From Gammaproteobacteria bacterium (GTDB lineage Bacteria; Pseudomonadota; Gammaproteobacteria; SZUA-152): a stretch of DNA of 64,000 nt. Under the pieces are notes generated by a model. That model saw only the letters and a program-made list of their open reading frames with translations. It made no database searches and was not told the origin of the DNA. The position numbers and the translations under genes are program-made. Where the stretch lies: contig JAKIUN010000008.1 of the NCBI GenBank assembly GCA_021647505.1, forward strand, positions 1 through 64,000, in the 5' to 3' direction. How positions within the stretch are numbered: the first letter of the stretch is position 1; each line of letters starts with the position of its first letter. This document shows, one piece after another, positions 14,811 through 23,339 of the stretch.

Positions 14811-15372
14811 GGATGTGGAAAATCTACCCGCATCACAAGCTATTACTTTGTCAATCAATGATGCCTACAAACTGAAAGCGGAAACAAATAACAATCTCCT
14901 TTTAGGCGGCGTCACAATCCCCGAACGGCACCAGAGCAAAGGCGATGAACATATCAGAGTATTCAATAAAATCTCCCAAGGCTGCACTTTTTTTGTTTCA
15001 CAAGGGGTCTATAATGTCAACGCATCAAAAGATTTTTTATCTGAATATTATTATTATGGGCAAGAACATAGCATTCCGCTCGTGCCAATATTGTTCACGC
15101 TAACGCCTTGCGGATCCCTTAAAACACTTCAGTTTATGAAATGGTTGGGTATCAGCATTCCAAAATGGCTGGAGAATGAACTGACACACTCAAACGATAT
15201 TCTGCAAAAATCGCTTGATTTTTCCGAGCAAAACTGGCTGGAGCTAAAGAGATTTGCAAATGAAAAAGGAATTCCTATTGGATGTAACATTGAAAGTGTC
15301 GCCATCAGAAAAATTGAAGTCGATGCTTCGATTGAATTGCTGCAAAGAATCAATCGCCAGTGTAACAAGTAG
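14811..15372 (+). pseudogene. 5'-truncated methylenetetrahydrofolate-reductase-like gene
   Basis: About 185 codons match the C-terminal two thirds of a MetF-like (MTHFR) protein. Seen are LLLGGVTIPERH, DEHIRVFNKISQGCTFFVSQ, LTPCGSLKTLQFMKWLGISI and IPIGCNIESVAIRKIEVDAS. No start codon precedes the family-like region, and the expected first 110 or so residues are absent, with the frame running into the DUF748 gene. The last codons end at a TAG supplied by the MITE-like element that begins at 15370. A second, shorter and more decayed copy of the same gene lies at about 23185-23300. I regard it as a remnant and not a functional reductase. Confidence 0.75.
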
Positions 15373-15522
15373 CCTGGGTTGAGCCTGCGAAACCCGGGGA
15401 GAAAGAAAGACTTACTCTTTAAATCCTCTCTCTCACATCGACCATTTCCTGCTCAATATTGTCGATGCTTGCGCCAATTTTCATCCCGAATTCCCCGGGT
15501 TTCGCAGGCCCAGGCCAGGCTA
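15370..15522. repeat. 153-base MITE-like element, copy B
   Basis: The terminal inverted repeats TAGCCTGGGTTGAGCCTGCG and its near-complement ending CAGGCTA enclose an interior similar to copy A (4921-5066). The shared interior includes CTCTCTCACAT and TTTTCATCCCGAAT. The first three bases form the stop codon of the truncated MTHFR-like frame. At 15537-15566 another GTAGGGTGGGC-type palindrome follows. The rest of 15523-15608 shows no gene. Confidence 0.75.
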
Positions 15523-15608: not shown

Positions 15609-16511
15609 TTAAGCTTCAGACCCAGGGTCATTTTCTTCTATTATAAGATTGGGCACACCCATACCTTGTAACCAAACGCTCCCTTCAGGCCGGCCTTTGA
15701 GCATCGTGATAGTGCTCAGAGTACCGGCAATCAGACATTGATCAGCTTGCACGGTGACACTCGCCAATCCTCTCACCGGCCAGCCAGTGAGAGGATTGAG
15801 GACATGGCCGTAACGGCGCCCATCGACGATCATACAGCGCTCATAGCTGCCGCTTGTTGCAACCCCTCCCCCAGTGCTGTCAATATGCGCCACTGCTTTC
15901 TCCGGGTCATCAGGATTACGAATACCTATTTTCCACGGCTTTCCATTCAGATGCGGGCCAATAACACGGATATCACCACCAAGGTCAACTAATCCATGCC
16001 TGACACCTTTCTCTATACAAAACGAAGCCAGGGTATCCGCAGCATACTCTTTTACATAACCGCCAAAATCAAGTTCCATACCTTTAGGAAGTTCAATATA
16101 TGGCTTACGCCATCGTACTTTTTGCCAACCGATCATATCGAGGGTTTGGGTAATTTTTTCCTGGGGAGGTAAAACACCACTTTTAAAGTCCCAGATGCGT
16201 CTCAATACACCTGATGTAATATCAAACAGTCCGTCACTTTGTTCAAAGGCCTCACCTGCATAGTCCAATAATGCTGCGGTTTCCGAATCAACACGCAGAC
16301 CCTGCCCGCTTCCCGCACCACGATTAATTGTGGTCGTAATACTGTCACTTTGATAACGGGAATATTTTTTCTCCAAGGCGCGAATGCAGCTTAAAGCAGC
16401 TTGAGGCACTGTTTTCGCTTGTTTCTGTGTGAGGTACAAATGTAGCTTGCAGGGGCTACCCATAGCTTTAAAGGAAAGCACAGAAATGATTGGCTTGCGG
16501 GAAATTTTCAT
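15609..16511 (-). CDS. apbE: ApbE family FAD:protein FMN transferase
   Basis: ApbE enzymes attach FMN from FAD through a phosphoester bond to Thr or Ser in target proteins, usually outside the cytoplasm. The 300-residue product has the family motifs ELDFGGYVKEYAADTL, LVDLGGDIRVIG, GGVATSGSYERCMIVDGRRY and GHVLNPLTGWPV. Many ApbE proteins are lipoproteins, but no signal peptide or lipobox is evident after the start MKISRKPIISVLSF. It may therefore act inside the cell or the start may be annotated too short. It is the last gene of the DUF1501-TlpA-DUF4266-DUF3570 operon. Its substrate is probably the DUF3570 protein, by inference. Confidence 0.9.
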   Translation of the reverse strand: MKISRKPIISVLSFKAMGSPCKLHLYLTQKQAKTVPQAALSCIRALEKKYSRYQSDSITTTINRGAGSGQGLRVDSETAALLDYAGEAFEQSDGLFDITSGVLRRIWDFKSGVLPPQEKITQTLDMIGWQKVRWRKPYIELPKGMELDFGGYVKEYAADTLASFCIEKGVRHGLVDLGGDIRVIGPHLNGKPWKIGIRNPDDPEKAVAHIDSTGGGVATSGSYERCMIVDGRRYGHVLNPLTGWPVRGLASVTVQADQCLIAGTLSTITMLKGRPEGSVWLQGMGVPNLIIEENDPGSEA

Positions 16512-16596
16512 AAGACTGAGTCAATCTAGATCAAGAAATTTCTTATGCACCACCCAAATTTCAAATTCAAGCTATATTACAAGCTATCAAACGCTA

Positions 16597-17760
16597 CTAA
16601 ATTTTTATATCAAATCCTACTGTCCAACGGGTAAAGCTCACGAGACCTGGGTTTTCAATCTCGTCCAAACTACCTCCAGCTTGCGAACCCGCGCTTTCAT
16701 AACGTTCCCCCGCCACAGTAAACGACCAAGTGTCAAAATATTTTATATATTTAAGCTTATAACTCATTGCTTGATAAGAAGATAGTCGATAATCACTCGA
16801 AAAATATTCAGTGGCACTATTTTCATCATAGTAAACACCATAGAATTTTGCTTTTTGCTGGTTATACAGACGTATTGATGGGGCAATGACATGTCGATCG
16901 CCAAAATTTTGATACCAGGCAATATTTACAGTATGTGAGCTTACTTCCCAATCATCCGTATAAGATCGATAATCCAGATGTAGAGCGCTATCGGTAGGTT
17001 TAATAAATTGCCGATAGCCAAAACTGACTACAGTTTGCTTACGAACATCCGGGCGTGAGTCCTGTAACTTATAGGGATCTGTCAGATAACCGGACAACTG
17101 AACATACTCCAGACCAGCCTGAATGATAGCGGTTTGGCTCAACACCTGAGTAACACCAAGATTATAAGAGGCACTATTTTTTTCTTCTTCGCTGACACGG
17201 CTTTGGCCTTCTTGCTGCGTCGGGTTAATCGTATCCAAAGAAAATCTCAAGCCTAATTTGACAGTCGTATTTTTTTGATTGAAATGCAGTTCATTATCAA
17301 GCCCCCCATAGGTAGCTTTGTAGTCATTTTCACGCGAATACCCCCCCATAAAACTAATGCTACTCTCTTGGTCATAAATCTTCAGCCTAGCGCCAATATC
17401 CTGACGATTCTCCTCAATGCTTGCCCCACTCATAATCAGTTCTGGCTGGTTATCGGCACCCTGCTTAACTCCCCAGGGTGAGGCGCCACTCATGGTTTCT
17501 GACAAATAATCAAGAGTAATCGCTGCACGTTCACCAATGGGTTGTATCAGCTGGATTTGATTGGCCTGAATTTCATACCTTTCAAGATCTCCCTCTACGG
17601 TGTATTTTTCTGGCGCCTTATCTTCTGCATACGATGTGTAGCGATATTTTACTGATGTGTAATCTGGTGCCCCCTCAGCCTTTACGTTTATTCCTGGCAG
17701 GGCGAGGGCACTGGTCGTAAGCGCAATTAAAGCGGCATTTTGACGGCATTTTTTAGCCAT
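16597..17760 (-). CDS. DUF3570 family envelope protein with two SGAS motifs
   Basis: The 387-residue product has a signal peptide (LIALTTSALALPGINVKAEG). The rest is rich in alternating beta strands with aromatic belts and ends in FTRWTVGFDIKI, as outer-membrane beta barrels do. Two SGAS motifs occur at residues 91-94 (ETMSGASPWG) and 111-114 (LIMSGASIEENR). I recall similar paired motifs as a feature of DUF3570. They resemble the D-G-x-S/T-G-A-T/S target site of ApbE flavin transferases, though with Glu or Ile in place of the Asp. With apbE directly downstream, covalent flavin attachment is a reasonable but unproven idea. An AGAGG ribosome site precedes the ATG. Confidence 0.85.
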   Translation of the reverse strand: MAKKCRQNAALIALTTSALALPGINVKAEGAPDYTSVKYRYTSYAEDKAPEKYTVEGDLERYEIQANQIQLIQPIGERAAITLDYLSETMSGASPWGVKQGADNQPELIMSGASIEENRQDIGARLKIYDQESSISFMGGYSRENDYKATYGGLDNELHFNQKNTTVKLGLRFSLDTINPTQQEGQSRVSEEEKNSASYNLGVTQVLSQTAIIQAGLEYVQLSGYLTDPYKLQDSRPDVRKQTVVSFGYRQFIKPTDSALHLDYRSYTDDWEVSSHTVNIAWYQNFGDRHVIAPSIRLYNQQKAKFYGVYYDENSATEYFSSDYRLSSYQAMSYKLKYIKYFDTWSFTVAGERYESAGSQAGGSLDEIENPGLVSFTRWTVGFDIKI

Positions 17761-17789
17761 CAGTAATGACCTCTTCCATTATTTTCATA

Positions 17790-18035
17790 TTAGTTACAAC
17801 CACACCCACCTCCACTTCCTCCTGAAATATTACCGCCTGAAGAGCCTTCTTTGCTGAAAAAAATATGGCTTTCCAGCGCCGACTCGACAGGGTCAAGCGT
17901 CCAACCCATCTCAGGCTTGGCCAGTATTCCTTTTTCCCATGGCTCAACCGTTGCACAGGCTGTCAGCCCGGAAAAGCTCAACAAGGCGATCAATAATCCG
18001 TAAAACCTAATGGTAGAAAGGCGCTTTAAACTCAT
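17790..18035 (-). CDS. DUF4266 lipoprotein with Gly-rich CGCN tail
   Basis: The 81-residue product has a signal helix ending in the lipobox LTAC, so the mature protein is a lipid-anchored peptide of about 54 residues. Just after the Cys comes the family block TVEPWEKGILAKPEMGWTLD. The C-terminus is a glycine and cysteine tail, GGNISGGSGGGCGCN. The two cysteines could bind metal or react with the adjacent thioredoxin. The ATG at 18033-18035 lies one base past the tlpA stop codon, which indicates tight coupling. I recall DUF4266 being found beside DUF3570 and thioredoxin genes in other genomes, but no function is established. Confidence 0.85.
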   Translation of the reverse strand: MSLKRLSTIRFYGLLIALLSFSGLTACATVEPWEKGILAKPEMGWTLDPVESALESHIFFSKEGSSGGNISGGSGGGCGCN

Positions 18036-18036
18036 A

Positions 18037-18543
18037 TCAAGGCAACATTTCATGAACCAATGCCTCAATCTTTTTGATATCACTATTTTTGAATCCACTG
18101 TGTACATATTGAATTCTCCCTTGTGGATCCAAAATATAAGAAGTTGGCATACCTCTGACACCATAGAGCTTTGGATATTTTCCTGTTGCATCATAAACAA
18201 CCGGATAATTAACCGGGTATTTATTTAAGAATTCCAGAGCCTCACTCGGTTTGCCATCCAAGTTTACGGCTAGGACTTCAAAACCTTTACCATTACTTGT
18301 CAAGCGTTTTCTAAGCTCATTCAGTTGTGGCAATGATTTTCTGCACGGAAGGCACCACGAGGCCCAAAAATCTACATAGAGAACCTTTCCTTTGAACTGA
18401 TTTGATGAAATCATTTTCTTATTATCGAACAAGGATGGCAATGTTATGGGCAGTGAGTCACCGATTTTTGCCGAATTTGCCGGGGCAGGCAGAGTAACGA
18501 AAATGATTAAAGTCAGAACGAAGATTGGAAAAGCATTATTCAT
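18037..18543 (-). CDS. TlpA-like exported thioredoxin
   Basis: The 168-residue product has an N-terminal signal helix (FPIFVLTLIIFVTLPAPANS) and a thioredoxin fold with the redox motif WASWCLPCRKSLPQL. The cis-proline region follows as VRGMPTSYILDPQGRI. Such proteins act as periplasmic thiol reductases, for example in cytochrome c maturation or for a dedicated partner. Candidate partners are the two CXXCH motifs of the operon's cytochrome and the CGC tail of the DUF4266 lipoprotein. I start at the ATG at 18541-18543. A TTG three codons earlier overlaps the DUF1501 stop codon. Confidence 0.9.
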   Translation of the reverse strand: MNNAFPIFVLTLIIFVTLPAPANSAKIGDSLPITLPSLFDNKKMISSNQFKGKVLYVDFWASWCLPCRKSLPQLNELRKRLTSNGKGFEVLAVNLDGKPSEALEFLNKYPVNYPVVYDATGKYPKLYGVRGMPTSYILDPQGRIQYVHSGFKNSDIKKIEALVHEMLP

Positions 18544-18548
18544 GGTGA

Positions 18549-19853
18549 TCAAGCTCTAAAATTGACACTGTATCCCGTTTTCTTGTCAGGATTAAAAAAA
18601 TCGACATCTTCAGCATTTAGTGGAAAATTCTGCGCCAAGGGTTCTTGGTCAACACCAGCCAATTGTCGAACTGCCTGGATCAGATGTTTTGATTTAAGAG
18701 CTATTCCATTTTCATCAATCTCCAAGGTCTGAGGGTTTATTTTCAAAGCAGTATGTTGCTCACCACTTGCACCCACCACACGATTTCCCCACGCCGCATT
18801 TCTTTTCATAAACATGGCGCTACCAATCGTGTGATGGTCTTTGCCTGAATTAGCATTGTAGTGAGGAGTTCTGCCCAATTCCGTATTTATAAAAACGACC
18901 AGTCTATCCGCCAAGCCGAGTTCTTGTGATTTTTCCCATAAATAATCAAGGGCGCCTGTCAACTGGGGCATCTTGATATCAGACTGGGCATCAAAATCTC
19001 TATGAAGATCAAAGTCGATGCCACTGGCTAAATTAATACAGGTTGTCAAGCCCGCTTGTGCACTAATCAATGAAAGATGAATATTTCTGACAAAGCTTGT
19101 TGTATTGCCCTGGGTGTCTACGGTATCAAGGCCTGCAGCAGGGATATAGTCCGCCAATCGATCCAGGGAATCTCTGCCTTGATAGGCAGTATTCATCTCA
19201 CTGAAGGCGCGAGTTAACGTAGGCAGATAAGTGTTTGTGCTGCTCAGTGTGTCGATACGGGCCTGTTTATAGCGCTGCAAAATATCAAGATCAGATTGTT
19301 TAATGTAGTTTGCTGTGGCGCTGGCCTGGTTAGGCTGGGCAACGGCTTTCATCATATTTAAATCAAGCAACCGTGTAAGTGGCACAATACCGACATTCTC
19401 TTCATAGCCTCCTTTCGACAAATAAGGCAATGCTAGGCCTTGGCCGTAGGTAGCCGCTATAAGCTCGCATGTATTCGGATAGCCACGCGCCAATCGGCCG
19501 CTCCAGCGGGAAATGGTACCTATAGCATGTCCATTGGTTTCTCCATCAATACCATTTATGACAAGCATATCCTTGTAGTACTTTTCAAAGAATTCCTGAT
19601 TTCCAGGAACTGGAGCATAACGTATATTTCCTGCGACACCGGCATCTTTACTGTCTGCCCATGTATTGATAAGCGGATCTTCACGGGGGTCAGTAAACGA
19701 ACTTTGGTCTAATCCTCCGCTGACATGGATATTGAAATAAATTGGCCCTTCATAAGGAGAGTATGTTGAGGCAAATGCTTTATCCAGTGGGAATGGTATG
19801 GCCGCATAAAGCCCCGCTGAACCAGCAAATTTTAAAAAGTCCCGACGTTTCAT
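18549..19853 (-). CDS. DUF1501 family exported protein
   Basis: The 434-residue product begins MKRRDFLKFAGSAGLYAAIP, a Tat-like signal with RRDFLK. DUF1501 proteins resemble the alkaline-phosphatase/sulfatase superfamily. The signature ELGRTPHYNANSGKDHHTIG is present near residue 320. The catalytic activity of the family is unknown. Proteins of this family are often encoded beside a large DUF1800- or DUF1592/DUF1588-type protein, here the diheme lipoprotein just upstream. AGGAG lies six bases before this ATG; an ATG one codon earlier is too close to the ribosome site. The gene is second in the six-gene operon. Confidence 0.88.
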   Translation of the reverse strand: MKRRDFLKFAGSAGLYAAIPFPLDKAFASTYSPYEGPIYFNIHVSGGLDQSSFTDPREDPLINTWADSKDAGVAGNIRYAPVPGNQEFFEKYYKDMLVINGIDGETNGHAIGTISRWSGRLARGYPNTCELIAATYGQGLALPYLSKGGYEENVGIVPLTRLLDLNMMKAVAQPNQASATANYIKQSDLDILQRYKQARIDTLSSTNTYLPTLTRAFSEMNTAYQGRDSLDRLADYIPAAGLDTVDTQGNTTSFVRNIHLSLISAQAGLTTCINLASGIDFDLHRDFDAQSDIKMPQLTGALDYLWEKSQELGLADRLVVFINTELGRTPHYNANSGKDHHTIGSAMFMKRNAAWGNRVVGASGEQHTALKINPQTLEIDENGIALKSKHLIQAVRQLAGVDQEPLAQNFPLNAEDVDFFNPDKKTGYSVNFRA

Positions 19854-19882
19854 CATAGTCTCCTGATTAAGTTGAAGGACAC

Positions 19883-22165
19883 TTAATAGCTGTATATGTA
19901 TCGTGGATCACTCATAAAATACAACAGAACAATCATCCAGGATCGGCCACTATACTCGGAGTCAGTTGTGTTATTCAGACTGCATCTTAATGTATTTTCT
20001 GGCGCGCTATTCCGCTCATTCCAAACTTCCTGATAAAGATTGTAAGTTTGCAGTAGTTCAGCGCTTTCCAAAGGCAGAAACTCTTCCAGCATGTGGTTAT
20101 GTAAATATTGGATATTTAACATGATATTTCCCTTGGCATTATCTGGCGTATGATCTAGATCAACAAGGGGAAACAATAGTCGCTGGTCGGTTGGCCTCAA
20201 AAAATCGTTTCTTACAATATTGCAGGCAACTTCATTACTCATGCGATCCAATACTGCATTGAGAGCTGTATTTATTGAAGTATTTCTGTCTATCAAAGTT
20301 CTCGCATCAAATCCGCCGTAGAGCAAACCATAGTTTCTTGTAATTGGCCTCATCTTGCTCCAGGACTCACCCACTGTAGCTTCCATTTTTCTCGAAAGCT
20401 GCTCAGGTGTCAGCAAGTGATATGACCCAACTGTTTTCAGTTCGGCAGCCCGTTCTGCCGTGACTTCGCTGGTCATACCAGAAGCCCTAAACCATTTGCT
20501 CGTAATTAAATTAACCAAGAGATCTTTAACATTATAGGCACCATAACCATGATCTTCCGAAAAATCGTCCGCAATTTTTCGGAAGAGTTCATCTTGTGCA
20601 TTAAACATATTCAAGCGTGCTTGATAATCTCTAGTGGTAGTATCAGTGGGAGGGGTTAATACTTTTTCACCGAATAATCCCTGGTACCAGAAATGCACGG
20701 TACCCATAGAAAAGCGGCTGTCTTTCACCATTTCTTTCCCCAACCACTGCAATGCGGCTTCATCCCCCTCGTGCCCTCCCGGAGCCAGCACGCCATTAAA
20801 CCCTGGTGGAAGCACATCACGAAACCAATTATCCCCCGGTTGATAGTAAGCGTTGCCATTTGCATCTTTAGGATAATTTTTACCCCTGTAACTAGAGGGA
20901 AGCGACGTCGTATTATCCGCGAACTGCAGGTATCTATTCTGACGTGACCAATTCTGGAAGAGCCCAGCCACTGGATCCATAATAATATGGCAAGAGGTGC
21001 ATTCAGGATCCTCCAGCGTCGGCACAAGGAACTGGCTGTCGTTTACCTGCGGACGTTGCGCTAAAACTTCCAGGTCAATGCCTAAAAATTGGCGCAGCAC
21101 GATTTTCGAGCGATGGCGATTACGGTTTGAGTCTGTCGTCGGGAAACGGTGCAACCAAGCATGGGTGGACAATACACCAGCATGAGGGAATGTCCTTCCA
21201 AAACGAAACATGTTAGGAATCGTTGCTTTCCGCCATTCCGAATTATCTGCTATGTCATCGAATTCCCCTGTGACATCAGCCTCATAAATGGACGCCAGGA
21301 TGGGATTTACGACCGTATAATTCGCCGTCAGTATTTCAGAATACGGCCGTTCATTGATGACTATATATCGAAGTAGTTGCAGTGGCTCTTGTCGCAAGGC
21401 CTGGTAAAAAATTAATCTTTCGGTGTAGTTTTTGATTTCACCTACTCTGAGATAGTCTTTGGCGACGGGAAAATTAGACGGGCCACCCGTGATGCCTGTA
21501 CTTAAAAAGTGGTTGTTGGCGGTTTCCAGCAAAAAATCTTCAAAATTTTCACCCTGCATCATGTTGCGTATCGTCACTCGCAGGCTGTCCTCCCCTCCTG
21601 CCGCTACAGCATTAAGCTCACTGACCGTGGGGCGCCTTCCAGCTAATACAATCGCCGCCTTTTTCAAAGTTTCTTGTTCGCTGTAGAATTTAATGCCATC
21701 AAAAAATGAAACCTTGGATGTGGCCCCACAATCTTTTACCATTACTGAAACCAGGCTTTCTAAGTTCTGATATTCCTGCTGGGACTGATCAACATACGGG
21801 GTGCCACCACCATGAACAGGCAAGCCAATCGTCTTATTTAACAGCATCACAGCGTTGCTTAGAGAAAAATTTCGTAAAATATTATAGTTTTCGGCTTGCG
21901 CATCAGAATTTTTTGTAAAAACTAATCGGGTATTATTAGCCACCCCTCCAGAGTGATGGCAATCAAGACAAGACTCCTGGATAGACGGCCATACAGTTTC
22001 TGTAAATAAAGCAGGTGCTGTTGCACAATCCTTATCATTAATTACATTATCTTTTTTTTCATCCTCACTGCTAGGGGCAGGCATACAAGCAAACAGTGTT
22101 AACGTACTTGAAATCACTAACAATGGTAACCATGATGTGGAACCAAGGTTCAATGGGAGCAACAT
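19883..22165 (-). CDS. diheme c-type cytochrome lipoprotein, DUF1592/DUF1588-like
   Basis: The 760-residue product has a signal sequence with lipobox TLFACMP. Two haem-binding motifs are seen: CLDCHH near residue 65, and CTSCH near residue 395 in DPECTSCHIIMDPVAGLF. The second resembles the CXXCH-xxxDP signature of DUF1588 in planctomycete-type cytochromes. Between them is a long helical region (VLAGRRPTVSELNAVAAGGE) like DUF1592. The arrangement suggests a lipid-anchored periplasmic or surface redox protein working with the DUF1501 partner. It is the first gene of the operon, with GAGG upstream of the ATG. The upstream intergenic region of 1.17 kb should hold the promoter. Confidence 0.82.
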   Translation of the reverse strand: MLLPLNLGSTSWLPLLVISSTLTLFACMPAPSSEDEKKDNVINDKDCATAPALFTETVWPSIQESCLDCHHSGGVANNTRLVFTKNSDAQAENYNILRNFSLSNAVMLLNKTIGLPVHGGGTPYVDQSQQEYQNLESLVSVMVKDCGATSKVSFFDGIKFYSEQETLKKAAIVLAGRRPTVSELNAVAAGGEDSLRVTIRNMMQGENFEDFLLETANNHFLSTGITGGPSNFPVAKDYLRVGEIKNYTERLIFYQALRQEPLQLLRYIVINERPYSEILTANYTVVNPILASIYEADVTGEFDDIADNSEWRKATIPNMFRFGRTFPHAGVLSTHAWLHRFPTTDSNRNRHRSKIVLRQFLGIDLEVLAQRPQVNDSQFLVPTLEDPECTSCHIIMDPVAGLFQNWSRQNRYLQFADNTTSLPSSYRGKNYPKDANGNAYYQPGDNWFRDVLPPGFNGVLAPGGHEGDEAALQWLGKEMVKDSRFSMGTVHFWYQGLFGEKVLTPPTDTTTRDYQARLNMFNAQDELFRKIADDFSEDHGYGAYNVKDLLVNLITSKWFRASGMTSEVTAERAAELKTVGSYHLLTPEQLSRKMEATVGESWSKMRPITRNYGLLYGGFDARTLIDRNTSINTALNAVLDRMSNEVACNIVRNDFLRPTDQRLLFPLVDLDHTPDNAKGNIMLNIQYLHNHMLEEFLPLESAELLQTYNLYQEVWNERNSAPENTLRCSLNNTTDSEYSGRSWMIVLLYFMSDPRYIYSY

Positions 22166-23339
22166 AAGCTTACTTACCTCAAATGTACTTCTATAACCAA
22201 ATTGCTGAGAGATTATCTAAAATAATTCTAACAATGATTTTTGTTGTCGATTAAATAATCATAAATAAGATGCCGGGTTTCCAGGGCGGTATTAGCAATC
22301 ATTTTGACACTAGTGATCCTGATCAATTTGGCCCTGAAACAGATGTAAAAATTAACCACTCCACAGCAAGCTGCAGGAGATTAAAACCGTTTAGAAGCAT
22401 CATGGTATTCATGTTAGCGGCAGTTCATCTAAAATAGTTACGTAAATTAAACACCGTAAATGAGAGGCGCATCACAGAATGATAAAATGTGAAACGGTAG
22501 CCACAACGGTTAAATTTATTCATAACGTAGGCTTGGTTTTATTGGATATTTATTTAAAGAAAAAGTTATTGATTTTCAAATTAAATGATTGAAAAAAAGA
22601 TGCAAGCGAAGCGAGAATCTCTGACTTGTTTATCATGCAAAACACAAAGCAAACAGCGGCAAGGTCTATTCAGCCTAGAATCCGCAATTGACCGTTCTAT
22701 ACTAAGACTACGCTATTGTTATGCAGGCTATTAGCCACGACTATCCTATTACCCGCTGAGCGAACCACGCTAGGGGACGAGTTGCATGTTTGTGGCGGCA
22801 CAGGGCGGATTCCATTGCAGTGTCTCACTCTAGCGTCTTCATCTTCTAAGTCCAGCTCGATCAATGCGGTTCACAAACTCAACAGTATCCTACGTGCTAG
22901 GAGGTAAAATTTCCATAAAGATAACTTGGTTGAAATATGAGAAAAATCGGAAAACCGTCGTCCATTTGGCGATCATATCTACCATGGGCATAGGGCTTAT
23001 CCTTAAAGTAGCCAAGGATATTCATTGGCCCCTCAAAGGTCAGGGACGCTGTTAATCTCATTCGCAGTCATACTTGTGGCAGCTGATATCCAGTTCACTT
23101 TTAGTTGCTGGCTGGCGTCAGACTGCTATACGGATCAAAAGCTCGCCTCAAGCGCCTACTTTTGGCGAAGAAAATAAGTGCGGGCACTTGCAGGATCTAG
23201 TCTGGATTAAAACTTCTCGGCTTATAAAGCTTCCGGAGAATGAGCTGGCACATTCAAATAACATCCCCAAAAAATCAGTTGATTTTCCAAGCAAAGCTAG
23301 GTGCAATCGGGAATGGATGAGCGTGAGCATGCCCTACTC
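22166..23339. other. 1.17-kb AT-rich intergenic region, promoter side of the redox operon
   Basis: No intact gene is visible on either strand. The left 400 bases are AT-rich and precede the diheme lipoprotein gene, so its promoter should lie there, but I see no clear hexamer pair. The right end contains the decayed MTHFR-like fragment (23185-23300). Short open frames between 22716 and 23055 show no family resemblance. Confidence 0.6.
23185..23300 (+). pseudogene. second, decayed copy of the MTHFR-like fragment
   Basis: The translation KLPENELAHSNNIPKKSVDF aligns with KWLENELTHSNDILQKSLDF in the fragment at 14811-15372. The DNA over this stretch (GGAGAATGAGCTGGCACATTC) is also clearly related. 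Flanking bases such as the CTTGCAGGATC and TTAAAAC blocks look homologous but contain stops and indels. It has the same orientation as the left copy and lies just past the end of dinB. It is non-functional. Confidence 0.65.

Follow-up and report, generated by a model that had tools for sequence, protein, structure and literature searches.

A Putative Envelope Redox Operon Joining a Diheme Lipoprotein and a DUF1501 Protein to a Flavinylation Gene Core in a Gammaproteobacterium

It is known that genes encoding the flavin transferase ApbE, a DUF3570 protein, a thioredoxin-like protein and a DUF4266 protein form clusters, with or without DsbD (Méheust et al. 2021, PMC8238504). In Chlorobium luteolum, both SGA[ST] serines of the DUF3570 protein are flavinylated by the cognate ApbE, and 316 published clusters of the DUF3570 type are devoid of DsbD (PMC8238504). 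Neither DUF1501 nor DUF1592 appears in the main text of that work (PMC8238504). DUF1501 and PSCyt/PSD proteins have been reported with no assigned function (PMC5615132, PMC5122149). As for ApbE itself, the catalytic triad is Asp-Ser-His, and cytosolic ApbEs are documented for cytosolic targets (PMC12052999).

Organization of the six-gene operon

The window, i.e., the whole stretch of 64,000 nucleotides analysed, harbors six open reading frames on the minus strand, from position 22165 down to 15609, all of which proved real and co-directional in the ORF check; the intergenic regions, in the order of transcription, are 26, 5, 1, 29 and 85 nt long. The first gene (19883..22165) encodes a PSCyt/PSD-like diheme lipoprotein of 760 aa, with the lipobox Cys27 and CXXCH motifs at residues 66-70 and 389-393. 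It is followed by the genes for a DUF1501 protein of 435 aa (18549..19856), with the Tat signal MKRRDFLK and conserved FDxH, GRT and GKDH motifs; a TlpA/ResA-like periplasmic thioredoxin of 168 aa (18037..18543), with the active site CLPC; a DUF4266 lipoprotein of 81 aa (17790..18035), ending in GGGCGCN; a DUF3570 protein of 387 aa (16597..17760), a probable outer-membrane barrel with a Sec signal and SGAS at residues 91-94 and 111-114; and an ApbE flavin transferase of 300 aa (15609..16511), which has Gly263 in place of the triad Asp and keeps Ser220 and His236. Five of the six assignments are confirmed by Pfam (DUF1501, 47.1 bits against a cut-off of 27; TlpA/Redoxin, 76.7; DUF4266, 72.3; DUF3570, 205.4; ApbE, 235), the exception being the diheme protein, which lies below the cut-offs for PSCyt3/DUF1588 (22.6, cut-off 27) and PSD4/DUF1592 (22.8, cut-off 23.3). 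The original prediction of a six-gene minus-strand operon is thus borne out, every gene being found at its place and strand, and so are the motifs that it listed, namely the two CXXCH, the CLPC, the ApbE and the CGC-tailed lipoprotein. Its count of exported products was also reproduced by eye: five of the six carry a signal (in gene order, lipobox, Tat RR, Sec, lipobox and Sec), and ApbE carries none.

All the evidence is comparative and drawn from sequences, the majority of the genomes being metagenome-assembled; neighbor genes were annotated by mechanical ORF calling, from which small genes may escape. As for the flanks of the operon, the C-terminal part of a MTHFR-like gene lies at 14833-15357 of the window, its full 309-aa form being located at the equivalent place in L059 (1828-2757), and a weak match of 52 residues is found on the other flank (23146-23298). 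Directly downstream of apbE, at 15370-15522, there is an inverted repeat of 31 nt, 90% complementary, whose arms are 91 nt apart.

The same six genes, in the same order, were found in a genome of the same family (L015, in G013). The order is also maintained in a genome of another family (L056, in G254), where the contig ends within ApbE and the cytochrome gene contains a single in-frame TAA. In a further family (L017, in G033), the six genes are present with ApbE located upstream of the cytochrome. In a genome of the window's genus (G002), the set is divided over two contigs (L018 and L059).

The comparison with the "DsbD-type" flavinylation clusters (PMC8238504) reveals the same four core genes, the double [S/T]GA[S/T] motif, the CXC-tailed DUF4266 and a DsbD outside the cluster, which is encoded elsewhere in four of four genomes tested. 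Unlike those clusters, the window adds the upstream diheme lipoprotein and the Tat-exported DUF1501 protein, and its thioredoxin is Redoxin/TlpA-like, closest to ResA/DsbE-type models, and is not matched by PF13899. The original prediction held that the whole combination is without a defined function; this does not apply to TlpA-DUF4266-DUF3570-ApbE, a published flavinylation cluster (PMC8238504), and stands for the added diheme and DUF1501 proteins. The new part is therefore the link of these two proteins to a core that was already known. As in the planctomycete-specific PSCyt/PSD cytochromes (PMC5615132), a haem protein of the PSCyt3/PSD4 type lies beside a family without assigned function, here always DUF1501; unlike them, the window's protein is a gammaproteobacterial lipoprotein with a weak Pfam match, embedded in a flavinylation operon that is unreported there. 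Lastly, the multihaem, MtrCAB-like porin-cytochrome conduits differ in that the window has two haem motifs only and a barrel predicted from sequence.

The flavin-thiol core and its ApbE

All 62 DUF4266 homologues carry a CXC motif at the extreme C-terminus, whether or not their loci contain cytochromes, and this lipoprotein therefore belongs to the flavin core. In DUF3570, the SGAS motifs at residues 91 and 111 are both kept in position in the other three members of the window's clade (L015, L017 and L056); the first of them reads E-x-M-[ST]-G-A-S in this clade, whereas the general motif starts with D. The covalent attachment of FMN has been shown for the C. luteolum homologue (PMC8238504), while the window's DUF3570 is known from its sequence. 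A terminal F, Y or W in 45 of 65 DUF3570 proteins and a strand alternation above that of shuffled sequences suggest that DUF3570 is probably an outer-membrane barrel. A PDB sequence search with this protein yielded no informative relative, and the pLDDT of its single-sequence AlphaFold model (29.4) is too low for the fold to be read.

The DUF3570 genes of L107, L115 and L125 encode proteins of about 900 aa, twice the normal length, forming their own clade (support 100) near that of the window. The window's genome harbors a second TlpA-DUF4266-DUF3570 set (G000:C76, L005 909-7180), with no nearby ApbE and no SGA[ST] motifs, preceded by a diheme lipoprotein of the PD40/HZS_alpha-like kind and by two barrel-like proteins; L141-L147 show this arrangement again, with a Pfam match confirming HZS_alpha in L141, and in most cases the opposite strand carries a PSD-like mono-CXXCH protein. 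In other cases, multihaem cytochromes adjoin the DUF3570 clusters, with 19 CXXCH in L090 (2004-4016) and nine in L139 (3553-5988).

The window's ApbE resembles the canonical enzyme (PMC12052999) in its family match, in the equivalents of Ser241 and His257, and in the lack of a signal peptide, as in the cytosolic ApbE of Klebsiella; unlike the ApbEs described there, it has Gly for the triad Asp285, and its apparent target is exported rather than a cytosolic fumarate reductase. These features extend to most of the ApbEs of the loci under investigation. According to the residue mapping obtained from the 6nxi alignment, Gly occupies the position of Vibrio cholerae Asp285 in 38 of 41 ApbEs, and the same 38 (the window's and 37 linked ones) have no hydrophobic N-terminal stretch. 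The three that possess a signal keep the Asp; two belong to the divergent DUF3570 group (L142 and L145) and one is a long-branch outlier (L106). The equivalents of Ser241 and His257 are maintained in all 41, and further marks of the subfamily are a Cys in AM[GA]SPC (37/41) and KE replacing KG (37/41). Since each ApbE reading frame was opened at the first ATG, GTG or TTG past a stop, an overlooked upstream start is unlikely; in the window, an in-frame TGA lies 12 nt upstream of the ATG. The absent export signal, together with the Gly replacing the triad Asp, sets the linked ApbEs apart as a subfamily, as judged from these alignments. FMN is probably attached to DUF3570 in the cytosol, prior to export; no cytosolic ApbE acting on an exported target was reported in the literature searched.

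The diheme-DUF1501 pair and its association with DUF3570

The diheme cytochrome family is rare, being found in six of the 369 genomes sampled in the class, one of them with a weak match; in the phylum sample (399 genomes) it was found only in the window's own genome, and a search of the relatives of G033 and G254 revealed no additional loci. In five relatives, the lipobox Cys27 and both CXXCH are invariant, and the L017 orthologue exceeds the cut-offs for PSCyt3, PSD4, Cytochrome_CBB3 and Cytochrom_C. The identification of the 760-aa protein as a RoxA/RoxC rubber oxygenase was discarded, the match to RoxC being weak (21 bits, cut-off 900) and confined to the first 130 residues, and the remainder matching PSCyt/PSD. 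A PDB sequence search with the cytochrome gave no informative relative.

DUF1501 is located directly downstream of the cytochrome in eight of eight loci, five of which also contain the flavin core. Since the core is absent nearby in the other three, the diheme/DUF1501 pair appears to be a separable module. Two loci without the core show larger proteins: in L055 (2550-6056), a PSCyt-like cytochrome fused behind HYR domains (1168 aa) precedes DUF1501, and in L057 (9194-18829) such a cytochrome lies within an ORF of 3211 aa, again followed by DUF1501.

As regards the DUF1501 protein itself, it keeps the FDxH, GR and DH residues, which would belong to the metal site of a putative alkaline-phosphatase-like fold. 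The PDB sequence search revealed no informative relative, and its single-sequence AlphaFold model (pLDDT 31.0) is too poor for the fold to be read. The other DUF1501 gene of the window's genome (G000:C79, L019 6998-12503) lies behind the gene for a DUF1800 protein of 1411 aa that bears macroglobulin/Ig-like domains, and there is no flavin core in the vicinity. In the DUF1501-DUF1800 pairs previously described (PMC5122149), a Tat-exported DUF1501 likewise lies beside a partner gene; unlike in those pairs, the partners here are a cytochrome or a haem-free lipoprotein plus the flavin core, and not a chitin synthase.

In order to assess the association between DUF1501 and DUF3570, PF07394 and PF12094 were searched in the same 369 gammaproteobacterial genomes. 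Among the matches listed, 16 of 102 DUF1501 loci, belonging to 13 families, have a DUF3570 gene at a distance of no more than 7 kb, where random placement on 3.5 Mb would give 0.41. When the DUF3570 matches listed are divided into score classes, which were defined after the data were seen, the linked ones amount to 13/20 and 3/13 in two classes, 0/32 in the canonical one and 0/61 in the divergent one.

The tree of 65 DUF3570 proteins, a quick tree whose supports are not bootstrap values, places the linked proteins in two groups: one of four members, including the window, with cytochrome and DUF1501 (support 95), and one of 12 members, with DUF1501 and a lipoprotein (support 87), split from the former by branches at 99. 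Cytochrome and DUF1501 are both present in four of four members of the window's clade. The two clades use different DUF1501 subfamilies (cross-profile E values from 7e-9 to 5e-4), and the lipoprotein of the second clade is haem-free, without CXXCH. The homology of this lipoprotein to the diheme protein is unsupported, the profile comparison having revealed no similarity between the two; one weak match to DUF1800 was found for it (E 0.026). L099, a member of the second clade, exhibits the window's order on one strand (lipoprotein, DUF1501, TlpA, DUF4266, DUF3570), and across this clade DUF1501 and DUF3570 adjoin in several arrangements (same strand, convergent and divergent). In the wider clade, L089, L090 and L091 adjoin RoxA-like or multihaem cytochromes. 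These data indicate that DUF1501 joined DUF3570 independently in two clades and, since the second clade's lipoprotein has no CXXCH, that haem is dispensable for the partnership between DUF1501 and the core.

A functional link is supported above all by this two-fold joining in different backgrounds, and the chance that the operon specifies a single envelope electron-transfer system built from two joined modules is somewhat better than even. The original interpretation is partly supported: the adjacency test that it had posed favors a single system, through the 16 linked loci and the window's clade, and the six genes probably work together. The separate occurrence of each module speaks against a single system: three of the eight cytochrome-DUF1501 pairs have no nearby core, and most flavin cores lack both genes, DUF1501 being absent at 110 of the 126 DUF3570 loci listed. 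The same counts suit the possibility that two independent envelope functions share one promoter, the flavin core being placed behind the diheme-DUF1501 pair by chance or by shared regulation. This appears unlikely in view of the excess over random placement and of the repeated joining with different DUF1501 subfamilies and lipoproteins; moreover, shared regulation alone leaves unexplained the varied orientations of the adjacent genes in the second clade. The original prediction had also singled out a promoter of its own for apbE, together with unrelated targets, as evidence against a single system; nothing promoter-like was seen in the 85-nt gap upstream of this gene, with a promoter scan that was overall at chance (15 found versus 15.2 expected), and ApbE stays with the set even when located at its opposite end (L017).

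A possible envelope electron-transfer system

If the six products do form a single electron-transfer system, its first module would be the flavin-thiol core, in which the cytosolic ApbE would place FMN on both SGAS serines of DUF3570, either prior to Sec export or in the course of it. The flavinylated DUF3570 would then insert into the outer membrane as a barrel, and the TlpA dithiol, reducible by the DsbD encoded elsewhere, and the CGC tail of DUF4266 would exchange electrons with its flavins. The second module would be the substrate-facing pair, made up of the diheme PSCyt/PSD-like lipoprotein and the Tat-exported DUF1501, the latter being the candidate catalytic partner; electrons would move between flavins and haems, and the pair might perform a redox reaction on the outer membrane or close to it. 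Gene content, motifs, their conservation, the co-evolution of the modules and the signal-less ApbE can be read from the sequences compared, and from them we infer the flavin loading, the barrel, the electron path, the compartment of each step and the catalysis by DUF1501. The cooperation of cytochrome, DUF1501 and barrel in electron transfer, as originally predicted, belongs to the latter group.

The presence of the iron transporter VIT1 in 25 published DUF3570 clusters (PMC8238504) and the absolute conservation of the C-terminal CGC of DUF4266 might be read in a different way, i.e., as signs of a system that reduces iron or copper or assists in its uptake, in which flavins, haem and the CGC tail would reduce or bind metal at the surface and DUF1501 would be a metal-dependent ligand hydrolase; this is quite improbable, given that neither transporter genes nor genes for metal sensing were observed next to the clusters of the window's clade. 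That TlpA, whose nearest models are of the ResA/DsbE type, and DUF4266 chiefly mature the c-type cytochrome of the operon, keeping its CXXCH thiols reduced as ResA/CcmG do, with DUF3570 and ApbE as accessories, is very improbable, since TlpA-DUF4266-DUF3570-ApbE is found at dozens of loci where neither the cluster nor the adjacent DNA includes a c-type cytochrome, and the second-clade partners of DUF1501 lack CXXCH.

Under the preferred reading of one electron-transfer system, the two independent joinings tie DUF1501 and PSCyt/PSD proteins to a defined flavin-thiol redox core, and this would provide a concrete, single-operon lead on their function. A broader and more speculative proposal, which we consider possible but distinctly short of even odds, is that in DUF3570 clusters a distinct cytosolic ApbE subfamily without the triad Asp attaches FMN to an outer-membrane barrel ahead of its Sec export, and that this flavin barrel serves as an outer-membrane electron conduit whose working end is formed by repeatedly recruited DUF1501 enzymes, some of them accompanied by haem partners and others not. 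If cytosolic flavin loading by an ApbE devoid of part of the triad were true, both the accepted picture of periplasmic loading and the mechanism of ApbE would need to be extended.
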